From a virus: a stretch of DNA of 35,168 nt. The stretch spans positions 1-35,168 of the IMG/VR virus record IMGVR_UViG_3300025009_000277; one strand, given 5' to 3'. Position 1 is the stretch's first letter. Every line of letters starts with the position of its first letter. Both the position numbers and the translations under genes were made by a program. Shown here piece by piece: positions 9,222 to 15,583 of the stretch. The notes under the pieces were generated by a model. The model made no database searches, had not been told where the DNA came from, and was given only the letters and a program-made list of their open reading frames with translations.

Positions 9222-10466
9222 TTACACCCAGCTTGCAGAGTTAATACGAACGCTGACCAAAGCATCAGCTCCCTCTACAAATGTTTTCTTTCCATAAAGC
9301 ACATAAGGCTTTACGTAACTACCCAACTGGAGAGGAATTGGAGAAGTCTCAACAGATGGTTTTACCTGAAGCACCATATCCACAGCACCCTTTTCACCAA
9401 ACATCTGATAAGAACTCTCTGTATTCCAAACATCGGCTGCGGCTGTCAGTGTTTCCGAAGTAACAACATAACCATAACCCTTAGCTGCTACCGTACAGGT
9501 ATTAGCAGACAAATCAGCAGTTGCAGTAATGCGCTTCATGAGAAGTTGATTAGCAGCAGACAAAGCAACACCGTTTGCGGTTGTCGTTCCAGGAGCATTG
9601 ATAAGAGCTGCGAGGTTGGTATTAGCAACGTCTGCGGCTCCACCAATCAATACGTTTCCTGCTGTCGTTCCGATAACAGTAACAAAGGTAAAAGTAACAC
9701 CATTGATAATCACCGTATCACCGTTAGTGGGTGTCGTAGCAATTCCAAGCACACCAATCCAATAACCGTTTGTGGTGATATAGCTATCAAAACCGAAATA
9801 GGTTGACTTGTAACCATTGTTTCCAACCAAATCTCCATCAACGGTCTCACGACCGGAAAGAGATAAGGTTAATTTCTCGGCAAAGTAAGGATTCAAGTTT
9901 GCGAATCCTCCTTGTCCACCTGGTTTAAGGTTGCCAGCTTGTACGCGTGGGTCTTGCATCCCAGTGATGTCAATGTCTCTCAAAGAAAGTTTACGAAGTG
10001 CAGCACCATAAACATCGAGCACATTCGTTGTATCAAGAGTAATCGGTGATCCAGATGATCCACCAACATCTCCAGCATCAATAGAATTAGTTGCGCTCGC
10101 AACTTCTGAAAGATAGTCGGCATCAACGGCCTTGTTGATAGCTCGCATTGCCTTGTCTGAATACTGCTGCATGAGTGCGAAATTGCTCTGAACAGCATCA
10201 AGACTGTCAATTGCAAATGGAGAAGCCTTTGCCGATGTCACAGTCAAAGTTTCGTTGGTTTCTGTTAAAGTTTGCATGCTCATGTCTGTCCCGCGAATAT
10301 AATCCTGCTCATATAAACGAGTAGTGTACGGACGAGTAACAGGCTGACCCATTACAAGCTTTGCTCTTTCCTCAAAAGATGCCTGTGCGACATAAACAGG
10401 TGTGCTATAACGCGTCACCTGCATGCGATCAGACATTTTTGTTTCAAAAACGTGAGTATTTGCCAT
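9222..10466 (-). CDS. major capsid protein with inserted Ig-like domain
   Basis: The protein has 414 residues and follows the scaffold gene by three bases, the normal order in tailed phages. N-terminal sequence such as FEERAKLVMGQPVTRPYTTRLYEQDYIRGTDMSMQTL and the later KPYVLYGKKTFVEGADALVSVRIN fit an HK97-fold coat protein of the P22-like group. Residues about 236-340 (NGDTVIINGVTFTF, GTTAGNVLIGG, ANTNLAALIN) form a separate beta-rich domain of the kind found as surface Ig-like insertions in phage structural proteins. It appears to be inserted inside the coat fold. The assembled shell would contain hundreds of copies. The start at 10466 lacks a Shine-Dalgarno site (CTAAAATATG). Confidence 0.85.
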   Translation of the reverse strand: MANTHVFETKMSDRMQVTRYSTPVYVAQASFEERAKLVMGQPVTRPYTTRLYEQDYIRGTDMSMQTLTETNETLTVTSAKASPFAIDSLDAVQSNFALMQQYSDKAMRAINKAVDADYLSEVASATNSIDAGDVGGSSGSPITLDTTNVLDVYGAALRKLSLRDIDITGMQDPRVQAGNLKPGGQGGFANLNPYFAEKLTLSLSGRETVDGDLVGNNGYKSTYFGFDSYITTNGYWIGVLGIATTPTNGDTVIINGVTFTFVTVIGTTAGNVLIGGAADVANTNLAALINAPGTTTANGVALSAANQLLMKRITATADLSANTCTVAAKGYGYVVTSETLTAAADVWNTESSYQMFGEKGAVDMVLQVKPSVETSPIPLQLGSYVKPYVLYGKKTFVEGADALVSVRINSASWV

Positions 10467-10469
10467 ATT

Positions 10470-11264
10470 TTAGTCTAAATATCGACTATTCTTGCTAGAC
10501 ATGAATTTTAGATATTCTTTGTACTTCTTAGGATCATTCTCTGCCAATTCGTGTTCTTCATCGTCGGTCATTCTGTCAAAATCCACACTGTCAGACGTGC
10601 GTCCTCCAGATGGTTCAGCAGAACGACCATTTTTGAATACGAATTCATCCTTCTTTGATTTGTAAATATCCTCGATTCGGTATGTTGTATATCCTTTAGT
10701 AAAAGCCAATTCTGAAACTTTGCCTTTAACTTCTTGGATAAACTCATTTGTCGCGCTTGGATAGTCTTGTTTAATGAGTGATACGACTTTCTCATCAAAT
10801 TCATTTGAGACAGCGGTTTTGTGTTTTGCTATCTCTTGTTCTCTGATGAAAGCATCGACTTTTGAAGTATCCGGTAAACGGATAGACTTCTTGAAGACAT
10901 CGAGAAGTTTCTTGGCGGCATTTTTATCAAGACCGTGTTCTTCTGCTACGCTTTCAAGTTCTTTCTCGTAATCTTCTTTTGGCCTAGACTCTTGAAGTTT
11001 TTTCTCGTATTCGTCGCGAATCTTTTGCATTTCCGTTTCCGCTTCTTTTTGAGCTTCTTCTTTTGCTTTCTCCACAGCACGGTTTTTTTCTTCCAGTGCT
11101 TTAGATACAGGCATAGTCCAGGCTGGTCTTTCTTCCTCTTTTTTCACATCTTCAGATGACTCTTTTTCCTCCGCAGAATCATCTTCTTGTGTTTTTTCAG
11201 TGATTTCACTTTCCACTTGAGCATTTGCGTCCTGCTCTAGGACGTTCTTGTCTTCGTCAGACAT
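10470..11264 (-). CDS. capsid scaffold protein
   Basis: From the ATG at 11264 (MSDEDKNVLEQ) the protein has 264 residues. It is highly charged and mostly helical: an acidic N-terminus (QEDDSAEEKESSEDVKKEEE), a long coiled-coil region (about residues 55-110), and a C-terminal helical part ending SSKNSRYLD. Length, composition and position directly before the capsid gene are typical of scaffolds that guide shell assembly and leave. I chose the ATG at 11264 over the upstream TTG at 11294 because the TTG lies in the structured leader. The gene follows a long regulatory leader (11265-11482). Confidence 0.8.
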   Translation of the reverse strand: MSDEDKNVLEQDANAQVESEITEKTQEDDSAEEKESSEDVKKEEERPAWTMPVSKALEEKNRAVEKAKEEAQKEAETEMQKIRDEYEKKLQESRPKEDYEKELESVAEEHGLDKNAAKKLLDVFKKSIRLPDTSKVDAFIREQEIAKHKTAVSNEFDEKVVSLIKQDYPSATNEFIQEVKGKVSELAFTKGYTTYRIEDIYKSKKDEFVFKNGRSAEPSGGRTSDSVDFDRMTDDEEHELAENDPKKYKEYLKFMSSKNSRYLD

Positions 11265-11308
11265 AGATAAGATTTTATGTGGGTTTACTCCCAAGATAAT
11301 TAGTTTCC

Positions 11309-11326
11309 GTTCGCTATCAAACGAAC
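11309..11326 (-). other. small hairpin in scaffold leader
   Basis: GTTCG at 11309-11313 and CGAAC at 11322-11326 pair with an 8-base loop, between the leader terminator and the scaffold start. A second small stem, TGGG/CCCA, lies near 11280-11293. They add to the structured character of this leader. Confidence 0.4.
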
Positions 11327-11354
11327 AAAAGGTTTATGAATCGCATTCCACGAT

Positions 11355-11383
11355 AAAAAAACGCACCATGTTTCCATGGCGCG
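11355..11383 (-). terminator. intrinsic terminator with GAAA tetraloop, upstream of scaffold/capsid
   Basis: On the minus strand CGCGCCATG (11383-11375), loop GAAA, and CATGGTGCG (11370-11362) form a 9-bp stem with one G-U pair. Seven Ts follow at 11361-11355. This is a canonical Rho-independent terminator. It lies after the 150-residue gene and before the scaffold gene, so it would separate portal-side from capsid-side expression unless overridden by the competing fold at 11376-11467. Confidence 0.85.
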
Positions 11384-11467
11384 CTAACGACTACGAGAGC
11401 GGAAGTAACGGTCAAGAACCTCCTCTCTCGATAGCCGGTACCGCGCCATCGAAAGTCTTGACCGTTA
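11376..11467 (-). ncRNA. attenuator-like leader RNA with competing pseudoknotted fold
   Basis: In minus-strand order: segment 1 TAACGGTCAAGA (11467-11456), segment 2 ATGGCGCG (11449-11442), segment 3 CGAGAG (11430-11425), segment 4 TCTTGACCGTTA (11417-11406), segment 5 CTCTCG (11399-11394), segment 6 CGCGCCAT (11383-11376). Segments 1 and 4 are perfect 12-base complements. Segments 2 and 3 lie in the loop they close, and can pair with 6 and 5 outside it, making pseudoknots. Segment 6 is also the 5' side of the downstream terminator stem, so the 2-6 pairing would block termination. This is the logic of an attenuator, riboswitch or antiterminator RNA. I do not recognise a known class. Confidence 0.6.
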
Positions 11468-11482
11468 GTATCTTTTTAATTG

Positions 11483-11935
11483 TTAAGAAGCATTGAATTT
11501 CTTTACAAAACCTATTGCTAACTCTTTGAAATCATTTCCGTGAGCCTCACTACTATATTCTCTCACAAATTCCACTTTCCCAGAAGGCCATTCTTTATTC
11601 ACAATACACTTTGAAGAACTACATTCCATGAAAAATCTACAAATCACTTTTGTATGTCTGGCAACAACGCTGGAAGGAACAATGATTCCCGAAGGTGTTT
11701 TCATTTCCCCATCCTCTCTCACAGTAATCTTCTGTAAACACTCCAAACCATCATCCTTTGTTTTCTTATCATCTATGATGGATTGAGCGATATTCTTTAT
11801 GCTTACATCTGAATACTCCTGTTTGTACTCTGACTCCGATTGATCTAAGACTTCGAGCAATTTTGACAATTTCAATCTTCCGTCATACTTAATCCCTCTC
11901 TCGTCTAATTTTCCTTGCACGTCTTCTTTCGTCAT
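11483..11935 (-). CDS. small head-region protein with HeH/SAP-like N-terminus
   Basis: The protein has 150 residues. The first ~35 (TKEDVQGKLDERGIKYDGRLKLSKLLEVL) look like a HeH/LEM or SAP-type helix-extended-loop-helix module, often found in phage head genes. The C-terminal half (about 75-150) is beta-rich with a Cys-containing segment (CRFFMECSSSKCIV) and is not recognised. Its start overlaps the preceding gene's stop by four bases (ATGA), so the two should be translationally coupled. It is the last gene before the leader terminator. It may be a minor head or decoration protein, but this is inferred from position only. Confidence 0.6.
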   Translation of the reverse strand: MTKEDVQGKLDERGIKYDGRLKLSKLLEVLDQSESEYKQEYSDVSIKNIAQSIIDDKKTKDDGLECLQKITVREDGEMKTPSGIIVPSSVVARHTKVICRFFMECSSSKCIVNKEWPSGKVEFVREYSSEAHGNDFKELAIGFVKKFNAS

Positions 11936-12244: not shown

Positions 12245-14269
12245 TTATCTCATTCTTTTAGACATCACTTGAGAAGCTTCTGCGGTTCCTTCTGGAGTTC
12301 CCGTCGGGCTTTCAAAAGGTCTTGCTAATGATTGCTTCATTTGTTGTCCCGTTGCTTGCCCTCCAACATCCACAGCATTTTGAGCGATTTCCCCTTGTGG
12401 AACTTGTCCAGCAGCTAATTTTCTTGATTTTCGCATCATGTTTCCGACCACAATGTTCTCGTGCGCTCTTGCGTATTTAAGTAACATATCAAACTGTTTT
12501 TTCATGTCCTTGTCTATTCCTTTTTCGTTTCCTTCGTCATCCAAAAGGACATAATCCAGATTATCTTTGGCGTAATCTAGTATACGTTGCAAGAAAGTTA
12601 TATCAGCTCCCATATTCAATCTGGGCATCTTGTCGAGGAGGATATCTTGAATAGCATTATCAGCTTCTTCCATAAGTTCTTGATTTAGAGAACTCTCGGT
12701 ATCAAGAGCTTGAGAAACATCGTCATCGTTGAAACCGCTCTTTAGAAGAACGTTGCGAATGACCCATCTTGCATTTATTTTATCTGGATATGATCCTGTC
12801 AACTCTTTGATGCTTGATAGCTGTTTTTCATTCTCAATGGCCGACGTTTGCTGCTCCGACGATCCTCCTGACACAATAACATCATCAACATCGTCGACAT
12901 CCTTAAAATCCACGCTCTCAAGTTGTTGTAATTTTATTCCACCCTTACCAAGAAGTTCGACCATTTTCGGCTTAGTTAGATGCTCTTTCATACCCCAGAA
13001 GAATCTGTAACCCTTGTGAGCATAACTTTCCGAATACTCCTTGTTAATTATTCCAATTCTATCCGCTTCTTGCTGTAACTTGCCATAAAAAACACCAACT
13101 TTTGCATCAGCTTCTTGTGTCCCTGGTTCTGAAACACCAGACTTTGATTGATTGAGATTATCAAGATAAGAAACAAGATCGATGGTGAGTGATGCAGCAG
13201 GATTCTCGATAGTTACAATGTTCGGATTGCGTCCAGGATGAAACAATAAGACATTATCGGGGACAAAATCTTGAAGTTCGTTGATATCAACCAAAGACCC
13301 GCTCTCCACCGCCCGCATAGGGCGAGTTCTCCGCTTTTCATTCTCAAGCGCAGTGTTGAGAAGAAACTTCATTGCCTCCGTGATCGGATAAACATCATCC
13401 GATTCACCTTTTGTCCAAAAGCTAAATTCGTCATAATGACTAGCCCATGAGACAAAAGGTGTCTTTCCGCTCTTAAATACTTCTTTTAATTCTTCCACTC
13501 TAACCCAAATCTTACTTTTTGGATCAAATAAAAGATAAAACCAAGTTCCGTTGTCCTTCATCACCCATTCAGTCATATTCACACCTTTCTGCTCAACAAA
13601 ACTTGAACTGTCGACATCTATACCGAGAGCCTTCATCCTATTAAATTTGTTTGTAACAACGTATGAGTTCCCATCGGCTTGAGATTCCTTGAAGTTCTTT
13701 AGTCTTTCGACTTGAGACTTATCATAAAAACCATTTTTAGCTCCTAAAACCAAAGAATCGTGTGTTTTGTAAATATCAGTCTCTCCATGATAATTTCCTT
13801 CCTCAAGAGTTCCCCGTGTAGGATCAGCCACAAACGAAAAAACATCCACCAAGTCATAGTGACTTTTGTAGTTGTTTCCTTCACTTGAGGCATAAATCTT
13901 GCTTATAGCTCGTCCTGAAAGAAGCTCCTGTTTCTTTTCTGCTCTATCTTTCCTACTCCACCCAGAACGAGTTGAAGATTTTTCTTGTTCGAAAGCCGCT
14001 TGAACCTTCTCCGATAAAATCTTCTTATTCGGAATCTTGAATGTGCAAGACGGAGCATTGTCAATCTTAGAAAAGAGCAGATCGATATGTGAAGCAAAAA
14101 AAGGAAAAGGGATATTCATAATATCCCCGTCTGTTTCAATCGTTTTGTTGTTATAAACATCAATCATTTCACTAATCAAAGACATCCGTTTTTGTTTTGC
14201 TCTCAAACCCTGTTCAAGTTGTTGAATCGCTATGACCGTTAGCTTGTCTGCAAGCTGTTTTGCTAACAT
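12245..14269 (-). CDS. portal protein
   Basis: The protein has 674 residues and follows the large terminase gene by three bases. An N-terminal helical wing (IQQLEQGLRAKQKRMSLISEMIDVYNN), a beta-rich clip-like core (VDVFSFVADPTRGTLEEGNYHGETDIY, WVMKDNGTWFYLLFDPKSKIWVR), a helical stretch with NTALENEKRRTRPMRAVESGSLVDINEL, and a C-terminal helical and Gln-rich tail (about 560-674) fit a large P22-like or podoviral portal. It would form the dodecameric DNA gate that docks the terminase and later the adaptor. The start at 14269 (GAATATG) has no Shine-Dalgarno site. Confidence 0.8.
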   Translation of the reverse strand: MLAKQLADKLTVIAIQQLEQGLRAKQKRMSLISEMIDVYNNKTIETDGDIMNIPFPFFASHIDLLFSKIDNAPSCTFKIPNKKILSEKVQAAFEQEKSSTRSGWSRKDRAEKKQELLSGRAISKIYASSEGNNYKSHYDLVDVFSFVADPTRGTLEEGNYHGETDIYKTHDSLVLGAKNGFYDKSQVERLKNFKESQADGNSYVVTNKFNRMKALGIDVDSSSFVEQKGVNMTEWVMKDNGTWFYLLFDPKSKIWVRVEELKEVFKSGKTPFVSWASHYDEFSFWTKGESDDVYPITEAMKFLLNTALENEKRRTRPMRAVESGSLVDINELQDFVPDNVLLFHPGRNPNIVTIENPAASLTIDLVSYLDNLNQSKSGVSEPGTQEADAKVGVFYGKLQQEADRIGIINKEYSESYAHKGYRFFWGMKEHLTKPKMVELLGKGGIKLQQLESVDFKDVDDVDDVIVSGGSSEQQTSAIENEKQLSSIKELTGSYPDKINARWVIRNVLLKSGFNDDDVSQALDTESSLNQELMEEADNAIQDILLDKMPRLNMGADITFLQRILDYAKDNLDYVLLDDEGNEKGIDKDMKKQFDMLLKYARAHENIVVGNMMRKSRKLAAGQVPQGEIAQNAVDVGGQATGQQMKQSLARPFESPTGTPEGTAEASQVMSKRMR

Positions 14270-14272
14270 ATT

Positions 14273-15583
14273 CTAGCCCCACTTTGTGATTTTAATGTGT
14301 TCTTTTGTTCTCTTATGGATTGTGGGTAAATCCTTAAATTGTGAGTGACCGACTGCTAAATAACGGAAAGCATCTGCTCCATGAGATGACCAATCGTGTT
14401 CGGGGTGATCCCTGAACGACTTTCGCTTTTCGTCGTATTGCTTGTGATAATTTTTAAGAACCTCCAAACCTCTCTTACATTTTACCACATCGAACCAACA
14501 ACGTGATAATAGTAATCTTGCCGCTTGGATTCCATCATCTATTGCCAAATTCGGAATAATTAAAAGTGGTTTCAATCCAAGTTTTTCCGCTGTTTCTTTT
14601 CTTGAGATTCCAGTTGTCAATTCTCTTGCTTCTCCATCATGGGGCCAATAATATTCCCCATAAACGTAATCCTTCTTCTGCATCTCTGTCACATAATAAG
14701 GAACTCCCTCACCCTCTGCTTCCATGTAGTCTATGATATGAACTTCTCTACCTATCGTTTGCGTAAACCAGATAGCCATGGCATCTCCAACCCCCAAATC
14801 CCACCATGTATCGACTTTTACGCTTCGATCATATGAAACCGTTGTAAGACGCTTCTGTTGCTCCGCTTCATATAATTGCGTTCCGTAATAACTTCCTTGG
14901 ACACTAGCCTCAAATGAACAATAGTATTCCTGTTGCCAAATAGCATCATCTCCATTCTTTGCTATGATCTCTTTCCTTTCTTGGTTCAAAACGTCTTTGG
15001 AAATAACATTCGTATCATCTACTGTGAGTATGTTCACGAACCAATGTGGATCATCTTTAGCAAATTCTAGCAGATCATAGGCGTGATTCTTCCCTCTTGG
15101 TGTGAAATTGAACAGTGCCCATCCTCCATTTTCAGCCAAAATAGGTCTGATAAAATCCCACGCTCTCGGGTCTTGTAAAGAATACTCTGAAAAAACTACT
15201 CCCCGTGGATTCGTCCCAACGATTGAATCAATGTTATCCGAACCAATTATTTGAAGTATCGAGCCATTGATGGTCTCAATGAGCATGTTTGTAGCGTTTG
15301 TTCTCTTTCGGAGTTCTTTTGGAATATGATCCATGAATCTGAAACCTTCTTTGTCTGCGCCATCCCATAAAATCTTTTGACCCTGAGTGTAGGTTGGAAA
15401 AATGTAATAATAAGTCCCAACCACCTTAAACATCTCCTTGATTGTGAGATTTACGTCAGTTTTGTCTTTTCCTGCTCGACGATGCCAAACTTGAATTAAA
15501 CGCTTAAAGCCGCTATCAAACGCTTTGCAGAGGGGCATTTGATAGTCTCTAGGTTCAAATTTAAATGGAATCTGAATTGTCAT
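14273..15583 (-). CDS. terL: terminase large subunit
   Basis: The protein has 436 residues. The ATPase part has a Walker-A-like HRRAGKDKT (34-42), Walker B GVVFSEY (128-134) and coupling motif FNFTPRG (158-164). The nuclease part starts with WDLG (Asp262) and ends with DHPEHDWSSHGADAFRY near residues 398-414, which carries the final acidic metal ligand. This is the packaging motor and DNA-cutting enzyme. The start overlaps the small subunit stop by four bases (ATGA). Length and motif order are normal for the family. Confidence 0.95.
   Translation of the reverse strand: MTIQIPFKFEPRDYQMPLCKAFDSGFKRLIQVWHRRAGKDKTDVNLTIKEMFKVVGTYYYIFPTYTQGQKILWDGADKEGFRFMDHIPKELRKRTNATNMLIETINGSILQIIGSDNIDSIVGTNPRGVVFSEYSLQDPRAWDFIRPILAENGGWALFNFTPRGKNHAYDLLEFAKDDPHWFVNILTVDDTNVISKDVLNQERKEIIAKNGDDAIWQQEYYCSFEASVQGSYYGTQLYEAEQQKRLTTVSYDRSVKVDTWWDLGVGDAMAIWFTQTIGREVHIIDYMEAEGEGVPYYVTEMQKKDYVYGEYYWPHDGEARELTTGISRKETAEKLGLKPLLIIPNLAIDDGIQAARLLLSRCWFDVVKCKRGLEVLKNYHKQYDEKRKSFRDHPEHDWSSHGADAFRYLAVGHSQFKDLPTIHKRTKEHIKITKWG

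Follow-up and report, generated by a model that had tools for sequence, protein, structure and literature searches.

A conserved leader RNA, very probably a bistable transcription attenuator, precedes the scaffold and capsid genes of uncultured phages and may kiss copies of itself

How might an RNA leader set the transcription of the genes behind it? In attenuators of the pT181 type, a leader hairpin is recognised through a loop-loop contact and this contact leads to the terminator fold, the partner being a dedicated antisense RNA (PMC3753616). Classical terminator/antiterminator attenuators and riboswitch platforms engage an upstream hairpin, an antiterminator, and an intrinsic terminator in a three-part competition, and the lambda nut site (boxA plus boxB) places a boxA and then a hairpin ahead of a terminator in a phage operon. 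The HIV-1 DIS, which serves retroviral genome dimerisation and has conserved flanking purines, presents a 9-nt apical loop in which two nucleotides precede a 6-nt palindrome and one follows it (PMC4066764). The phi29 pRNA, a phage RNA encoded near head genes and part of the packaging motor, makes intermolecular contacts through kissing loops, two non-identical but complementary ones, and natural examples of functional RNA homodimers are rare (PMC7357161). Here, we describe a phage leader RNA that shares traits with each of these systems.

The window analysed is the whole 35,168-base uncultured virus record IMGVR_UViG_3300025009_000277. On its minus strand, the gene for the terminase large subunit (14273-15583) is followed by a probable portal gene (12245-14269), a 102-aa gene, a 150-aa gene (11483-11935), the element itself, a putative scaffold gene (10470-11264, ATG at 11264), which is the first gene past the switch, and the major capsid protein gene (9222-10466), placing the attenuator locus between the portal and scaffold genes. 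The capsid protein matched phrog_267 (major head protein, E 2.6e-10); portal and scaffold, both without a family match, are assigned by position, the latter from its place before the capsid gene. No DNA similarity of the window to cultured phages was found, and the protein search returned remote capsid matches only, hence no cultured host. Genome contigs searched with the portal gave no match, and searched with the capsid they gave five MAG contigs at ~30% identity in mixed bins, on which no host call is based. As a hint about the host, a Shine-Dalgarno-like 4-mer precedes just 4 of the 32 start codons in the window, the starts being A/T-rich. In one relative (L174, 7001-8203, on a contig shared with L280), the capsid gene contains TGA in frame 13 times, mostly at sites occupied by glycine in relatives, and neither TAA nor TAG, which suggests that TGA is read as Gly (code 25) and that this phage may have a Gracilibacteria- or Absconditabacteria-like host. 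The 150-aa product, of no known family, carries a conserved C-terminal motif, VREYS..HG..F..LA..F, and one member of its family has a weak SAP-like N-terminus. As a candidate regulator it was set aside: its AlphaFold model is weak (pTM 0.38), neither fold nor family could be matched with confidence, and the SAP-like hint is sub-threshold.

The element occupies positions 11467-11355 of the minus strand, where a 12-bp stem (P1) surrounds a second hairpin (P2) and is followed by a canonical intrinsic terminator, with the scaffold and capsid genes downstream. P1 joins TAACGGTCAAGA (11456-11467) to TCTTGACCGTTA (11406-11417) in 12 perfect pairs, just as an earlier, sequence-only reading of this DNA had it. 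That reading let the stem close a loop carrying two segments able to pair further downstream. The segments are there, ATGGCGCG within P1 being complementary to downstream CGCGCCAT and CGAGAG to CTCTCG, but the loop is not open: it holds P2, an 11-bp hairpin (CTTTCGATGGC/GCTATCGAGAG; 5′ arm 11445-11455, 3′ arm 11425-11435) with the 9-nt apical loop GCGGTACCG (11436-11444), in which two nucleotides precede and one follows the 6-nt palindrome GGTACC (11437-11442). A single-stranded joiner (11418-11424) completes the interior of P1. We refer to the P2 5′ arm plus the 5′ half of the loop as segment C; to the 3′ half of the loop, the P2 3′ arm, and the joiner as segment A; to the stretch after P1 (11386-11405), the 5′ part of the antiterminator downstream strand, as segment B; and to the terminator 5′ arm plus its loop as T5. 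The terminator, AGCGCGCCATG-GAAA-CATGGTGCGTT with seven Ts (hairpin 11360-11385, −17.9 kcal/mol; T-run 11355-11361), was found as first read and is the sole minus-strand site of such quality in a terminator scan. The folding energy is −33.9 kcal/mol for P1/P2 by itself (z −6.4, 0/200 shuffles) and −54.7 kcal/mol for the whole 126 nt (z −5.2, 0/200 shuffles). The inner hairpin, the palindromic loop, a boxA-like motif, and a second structured leader past the terminator are features that the earlier reading had not named.

Scans with capsid, portal, and terminase proteins gathered several hundred loci, and P1, P2, segment B, and an intrinsic terminator were found in 20 of them, the window included, with capsid identity down to ~33%. 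These 20 were collected without requiring a palindrome. A blind descriptor scan (3.07 Mb, both strands) returned 19 matches, 17 of them this leader, and added L222, L223, and L258, which fit in every respect and bring the set to 23 loci, all from uncultured phages; this descriptor did require the palindrome, and the three additions hence provide no unbiased test of it. One locus (L108) is a near-duplicate of another (L109). From element to scaffold start, the distance is 99-141 nt in most of the first 20 loci and roughly 100-200 nt overall (for L097, the ORF caller chose an upstream start). An intrinsic terminator follows P1/P2 in 20 of 20 loci scanned, and the two co-occur in all loci examined. 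In agreement with the earlier reading, which knew of no described element with such a layout at such a place, Rfam 15 yielded 0 matches at gathering threshold for the window and 11 relatives and chance-level matches only in a relaxed search, and literature searches, with thin coverage of subscription journals, turned up no self-kissing attenuator or scaffold leader RNA. Two close relatives, L095 (9733-9860) and L102 (5750-5868), offer a natural deletion comparison: since both are without the attenuator and have only the downstream part of the leader (part II, see below), the attenuator is dispensable in some phages.

Across these loci, P1 is almost free to change in sequence (19 distinct stems among 20 loci), and its cognate arms form duplexes of −13.5 kcal/mol compared to −3.4 kcal/mol for non-cognate ones (0/20000 permutations). 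Cognate pairing of P2 likewise gave 0/20000 permutations, and its covariation in alignment A7 was reached in 0/500 shuffles. Among 18 non-redundant loci, cognate and non-cognate energies were −18.6 and −7.2 kcal/mol for A:B, and −11.8 and −6.8 kcal/mol for C:T5 (0/20000 permutations in either case), with the wrong-partner controls C:B and A:T5 flat at about 29%. Repeating these pairings and controls on 21 loci, the three later ones included, left the result unchanged. Pairing is kept despite sequence change, as exemplified by L005 (UUUGAUGGCACG with CGUGUCAUUAAA) and L110 (CGGUGGCGUU with GGCGUCAUCG). The covariation check that had been set beforehand thus came out in favour of the element, both long-range pairings and the terminator being kept jointly in 21 non-redundant loci, and this supports the proposal of an attenuator with two exclusive folds before the scaffold and capsid genes.

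In every locus, what lies inside P1 complements both the segment that follows P1 and the terminator 5′ arm, and the resulting long antiterminator helix excludes P1/P2 as well as the terminator. In this second fold, a single long hairpin forms whose loop is the P1 3′ arm. The two long-range pairings that had been read as separate pseudoknot stems do exist, but they are pieces of this one continuous hairpin. Nor is a pseudoknot supported as a stable state. In H-type pseudoknot geometry, a connector of 0-2 nt cannot plausibly span a helix of 8-12 bp; P1 and A:B should exclude each other because B starts 0-2 nt after P1, short of that span. Coexistence of P1 with the complete A:B helix is therefore sterically implausible and the folds probably alternate, whereas P1 with C:T5 only may possibly arise as a transient pseudoknot or intermediate, and the joiner may offer segment B a toehold. 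As long as the terminator 3′ arm is not yet made, fold 2 has the stability advantage over fold 1 in 20/20 loci; once it is made, fold 1 together with the terminator matches or surpasses fold 2 in most loci. As the chain grows, fold 1 is favoured first, then fold 2, and in several loci fold 1 again. These are the energetics of a bistable attenuator. A terminator lies between leader and gene, and the antiterminator, which draws on the terminator 5′ arm, faces competition from an upstream hairpin. Comparative evidence demonstrates the two predicted folds, their base-pair exclusivity, the terminator, and a fixed-register self-complementarity, and we regard the scaffold-capsid leader as very probably a conserved cis-acting transcription attenuator, a switch at which termination would be expected to occur in vivo. 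Compared to classical attenuators and riboswitches, it comes without a known ligand aptamer, leader peptide, or Rfam match, and its hairpin is complementary to the downstream strand over its whole interior. Leader-peptide attenuation of the trp type was rejected, there being no suitable ORF: the ORFs upstream are mostly long genes that stop 7-24 nt short of P1.

What could set this switch? Of the first 20 loci, 15 have a 6-nt palindrome in the P2 loop, as do 18 of 23 overall, and a single nucleotide invariably separates it from the 3′ stem. The first 20 loci feature GGTACC, GAATTC, AGTACT, AGCGCT, TGTACA, TACGTA, and TATATA, and the three later ones AGTACT, TGTACA, and the new AACGTT, making eight hexamers in all. 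Five of the 23 loops are without a perfect hexamer, four of them having a 4-nt palindromic core and one (L216) none; loops of 10 nt (3+6+1) occur in L004, L165, and L116. A palindrome qualifies in 10 of 15 distinct loops; shuffling gave 1.64 on average and at most 8 in 20,000 shuffles. In the rest of the element, palindromes fall below chance frequency (28/3396 positions). In an ungapped alignment of the 14 hairpins with nine-nt loops, the three symmetric loop positions covary (score 1.14 vs 0.36 shuffled, 0/500) and two of the symmetric pairs are never broken. Because the two central bases are adjacent and cannot pair in cis, this constraint should act between molecules or in duplex DNA. The loop self-duplex amounts to −7.1 kcal/mol, as against −2.4 kcal/mol with the loops of other loci. 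In 13 of 15 loci checked, the hexamer was not repeated in the vicinity of the element; the kissing partner must hence be another molecule, and intramolecular kissing with a second palindrome copy was rejected. We also rejected, by reasoning, the palindrome as a by-product of fold 2, which pairs the loop halves with two unrelated segments. It is thus likely, judging from the covariation and the duplex energies, that the P2 loop kisses a second copy of the same RNA, producing a leader homodimer.

By loop geometry, the leader resembles the HIV-1 DIS, sharing the 9-nt apical loop and the 6-nt palindrome with two nucleotides before and one after. It differs in its varied flanks, its diverse hexamers, its role as an arm of a transcription switch, and its origin in a DNA phage. 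Flanking purines, important in the HIV-1 DIS, are not strictly kept (the 3′ flank is a purine in 21/23 loci; 5′ flanks are mixed), and we take the likeness as convergent geometry, not homology. By layout, the phage leader works like a pT181-type attenuator whose antisense partner is replaced by sense RNA, the palindromic loop, which can pair with the same sense RNA, making an antisense RNA unnecessary. No antisense gene was found for the leader, and the sole 9-of-12 plus-strand promoter-like site nearby (11598-11625, from a consensus scan only) points away from it. The leader is a member of neither class.

The best explanation overall, and one we hold to be reasonably probable, combines the bistable attenuator with a kissing-loop homodimer that favours the terminator fold. 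In fold 1, P1 would enclose P2 and tie up C and A, so that the terminator could form and RNA polymerase would stop before the scaffold gene. In fold 2, a single long hairpin would join C, the loop, and A to B and the terminator 5′ arm; the terminator could not form and the capsid genes would be transcribed. Another transcript or a terminated leader might serve as the homodimer partner of the P2 loop, and their kissing would stabilise P2, and with it fold 1 and termination. Copies of the leader, free or on upstream mRNA, would consequently cut read-through into the capsid genes, amounting to negative feedback on RNA dosage. That kissing favours termination, giving the feedback its negative sign, we propose tentatively. 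Similarly provisional is the full notion of an attenuator controlled by sense-sense RNA homodimerisation, wherein the leader might count its own copies and shut capsid transcription without protein, ligand, or antisense RNA.

Alternatively, the attenuator may be real and its switch set by a factor at the boxA-like motif or P1, such as NusB/S10, a phage antiterminator, or a ribosome completing translation of the upstream gene, with the palindrome being the site of a dimeric protein or secondary; this we consider rather unlikely. A boxA-like motif N-TTA(A)CA occurs just upstream of P1 in 13/20 loci (shuffles: mean 1.7, max 7; 2000 shuffles) and presumably resembles the E. coli rrn boxA. In the window, the motif reads TGCTTCTTAACA (11481-11492, minus strand) and overlaps the stop codon of the upstream gene, 15 nt before P1. 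A form TTC-N-TT(T/A)ACAA is seen between the upstream stop codon and P1 in L087, L096, L097, L107, L109, L110, L160, L165, and the window. Upstream stop codons lie 7-24 nt before P1 across loci, although the upstream gene differs, and motif and stop distance together point to Nus factors or the ribosome as other possible inputs. Nut sites, too, consist of a boxA and then a hairpin (PMC6614801). The phage hairpin, however, is ~60 nt long, itself contains the antiterminator strand, and has no conserved loop for an N-like protein. Moreover, the motif is absent in several loci (e.g. L003, L005, L106, L111), a protein-bound single-stranded RNA loop need not be palindromic, and what is conserved is the symmetry of the loop and not its sequence.

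It is improbable that the P1/P2-terminator transcript is instead a free-standing small RNA that homodimerises in trans, for instance in packaging or assembly like phi29 pRNA, with the terminator merely its 3′ end. Such an RNA would have a fitting size of ~113 nt, a defined 3′ end, head genes next to it, and a self-pairing loop, and phi29 pRNA does oligomerise via kissing loops, yet by two different complementary loops and no palindrome (PMC7357161). The phage element is a leader with alternative folds, whose C:T5 and A:B covariation this reading leaves unexplained, as those pairings would destroy P1/P2 and the terminator; the nearly free sequence of P1 speaks against it as well. More improbable still is the view that the palindrome acts in double-stranded DNA, as an operator, restriction, or packaging signal, and sits at a cruciform tip by chance. 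Palindromes are typical of DNA sites, and the locus lies between portal and scaffold genes; but the hexamer is free in sequence while keeping a fixed position relative to the RNA stem and a fixed coding-strand asymmetry (2-3 nt before, 1 nt after), making this reading less likely, and in the 3.07 Mb scan the mirrored layout (1 nt before, 2-3 after) appeared only as reverse complements of listed sites, never independently on the coding strand. Finally, long stems next to plain terminators are common between phage operons and P1/P2 is such a stem beside a canonical one, but an ordinary intergenic terminator with an RNase III-type processing or stability hairpin and incidental complementarity is close to refuted by cognate pairing of A:B and C:T5 across 21 diverse loci (0/20000 permutations, controls flat) and by the joint presence of P1/P2 and terminator in all loci examined.

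Downstream of the terminator, the leader continues into part II (11280-11354, minus strand), with H1, AYAAACC, and H4 common to all close relatives. Hairpin H1, ATCG-TGGAATG-CGAT (11340-11354), contains the invariant CGTGGA.GCG of alignment A6; the AYAAACC stretch (11331-11337) is invariant among the relatives in the same alignment; and hairpin H4, TGGG-AGTAAA-CCCA (11280-11293), has an invariant AGUMAA loop on a fully covarying stem, five pairs of which are changed on both sides (covariation score 0.60 vs 0.15, 0/500 shuffles). An optional hairpin H3, GTTCG...CGAAC (11309-11326), recognised by eye, is absent in L097 and L110. As part II is kept in L095 and L102, which are without the attenuator, it is a separate element, and one might guess at a translational operator of the scaffold gene; a multi-copy phage promoter was rejected, with no second site in the window within 3 mismatches. 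In the more distant L127 (8768-8850) and L120 (6970-7055), an A/T-rich stretch ahead of the scaffold gene lies between two H4-type hairpins with AGTCAA or AGTAAA loops.

Attenuators are a known kind of control, whereas control by self-kissing would be new: we are aware of no natural attenuator sensing its own transcript in this way. Even without feedback, the leader is a new, strongly covarying RNA element at a fixed genomic place that can be searched for in metatranscriptomes. If feedback holds true, it would also supply a ready-made, sequence-programmable part, given eight natural hexamers with, for the most part, no cross-talk expected. For the phages themselves, it would mean that head-gene output is coupled to template or transcript number, and that capsid production is under protein-free dosage control in a large group of uncultured phages.
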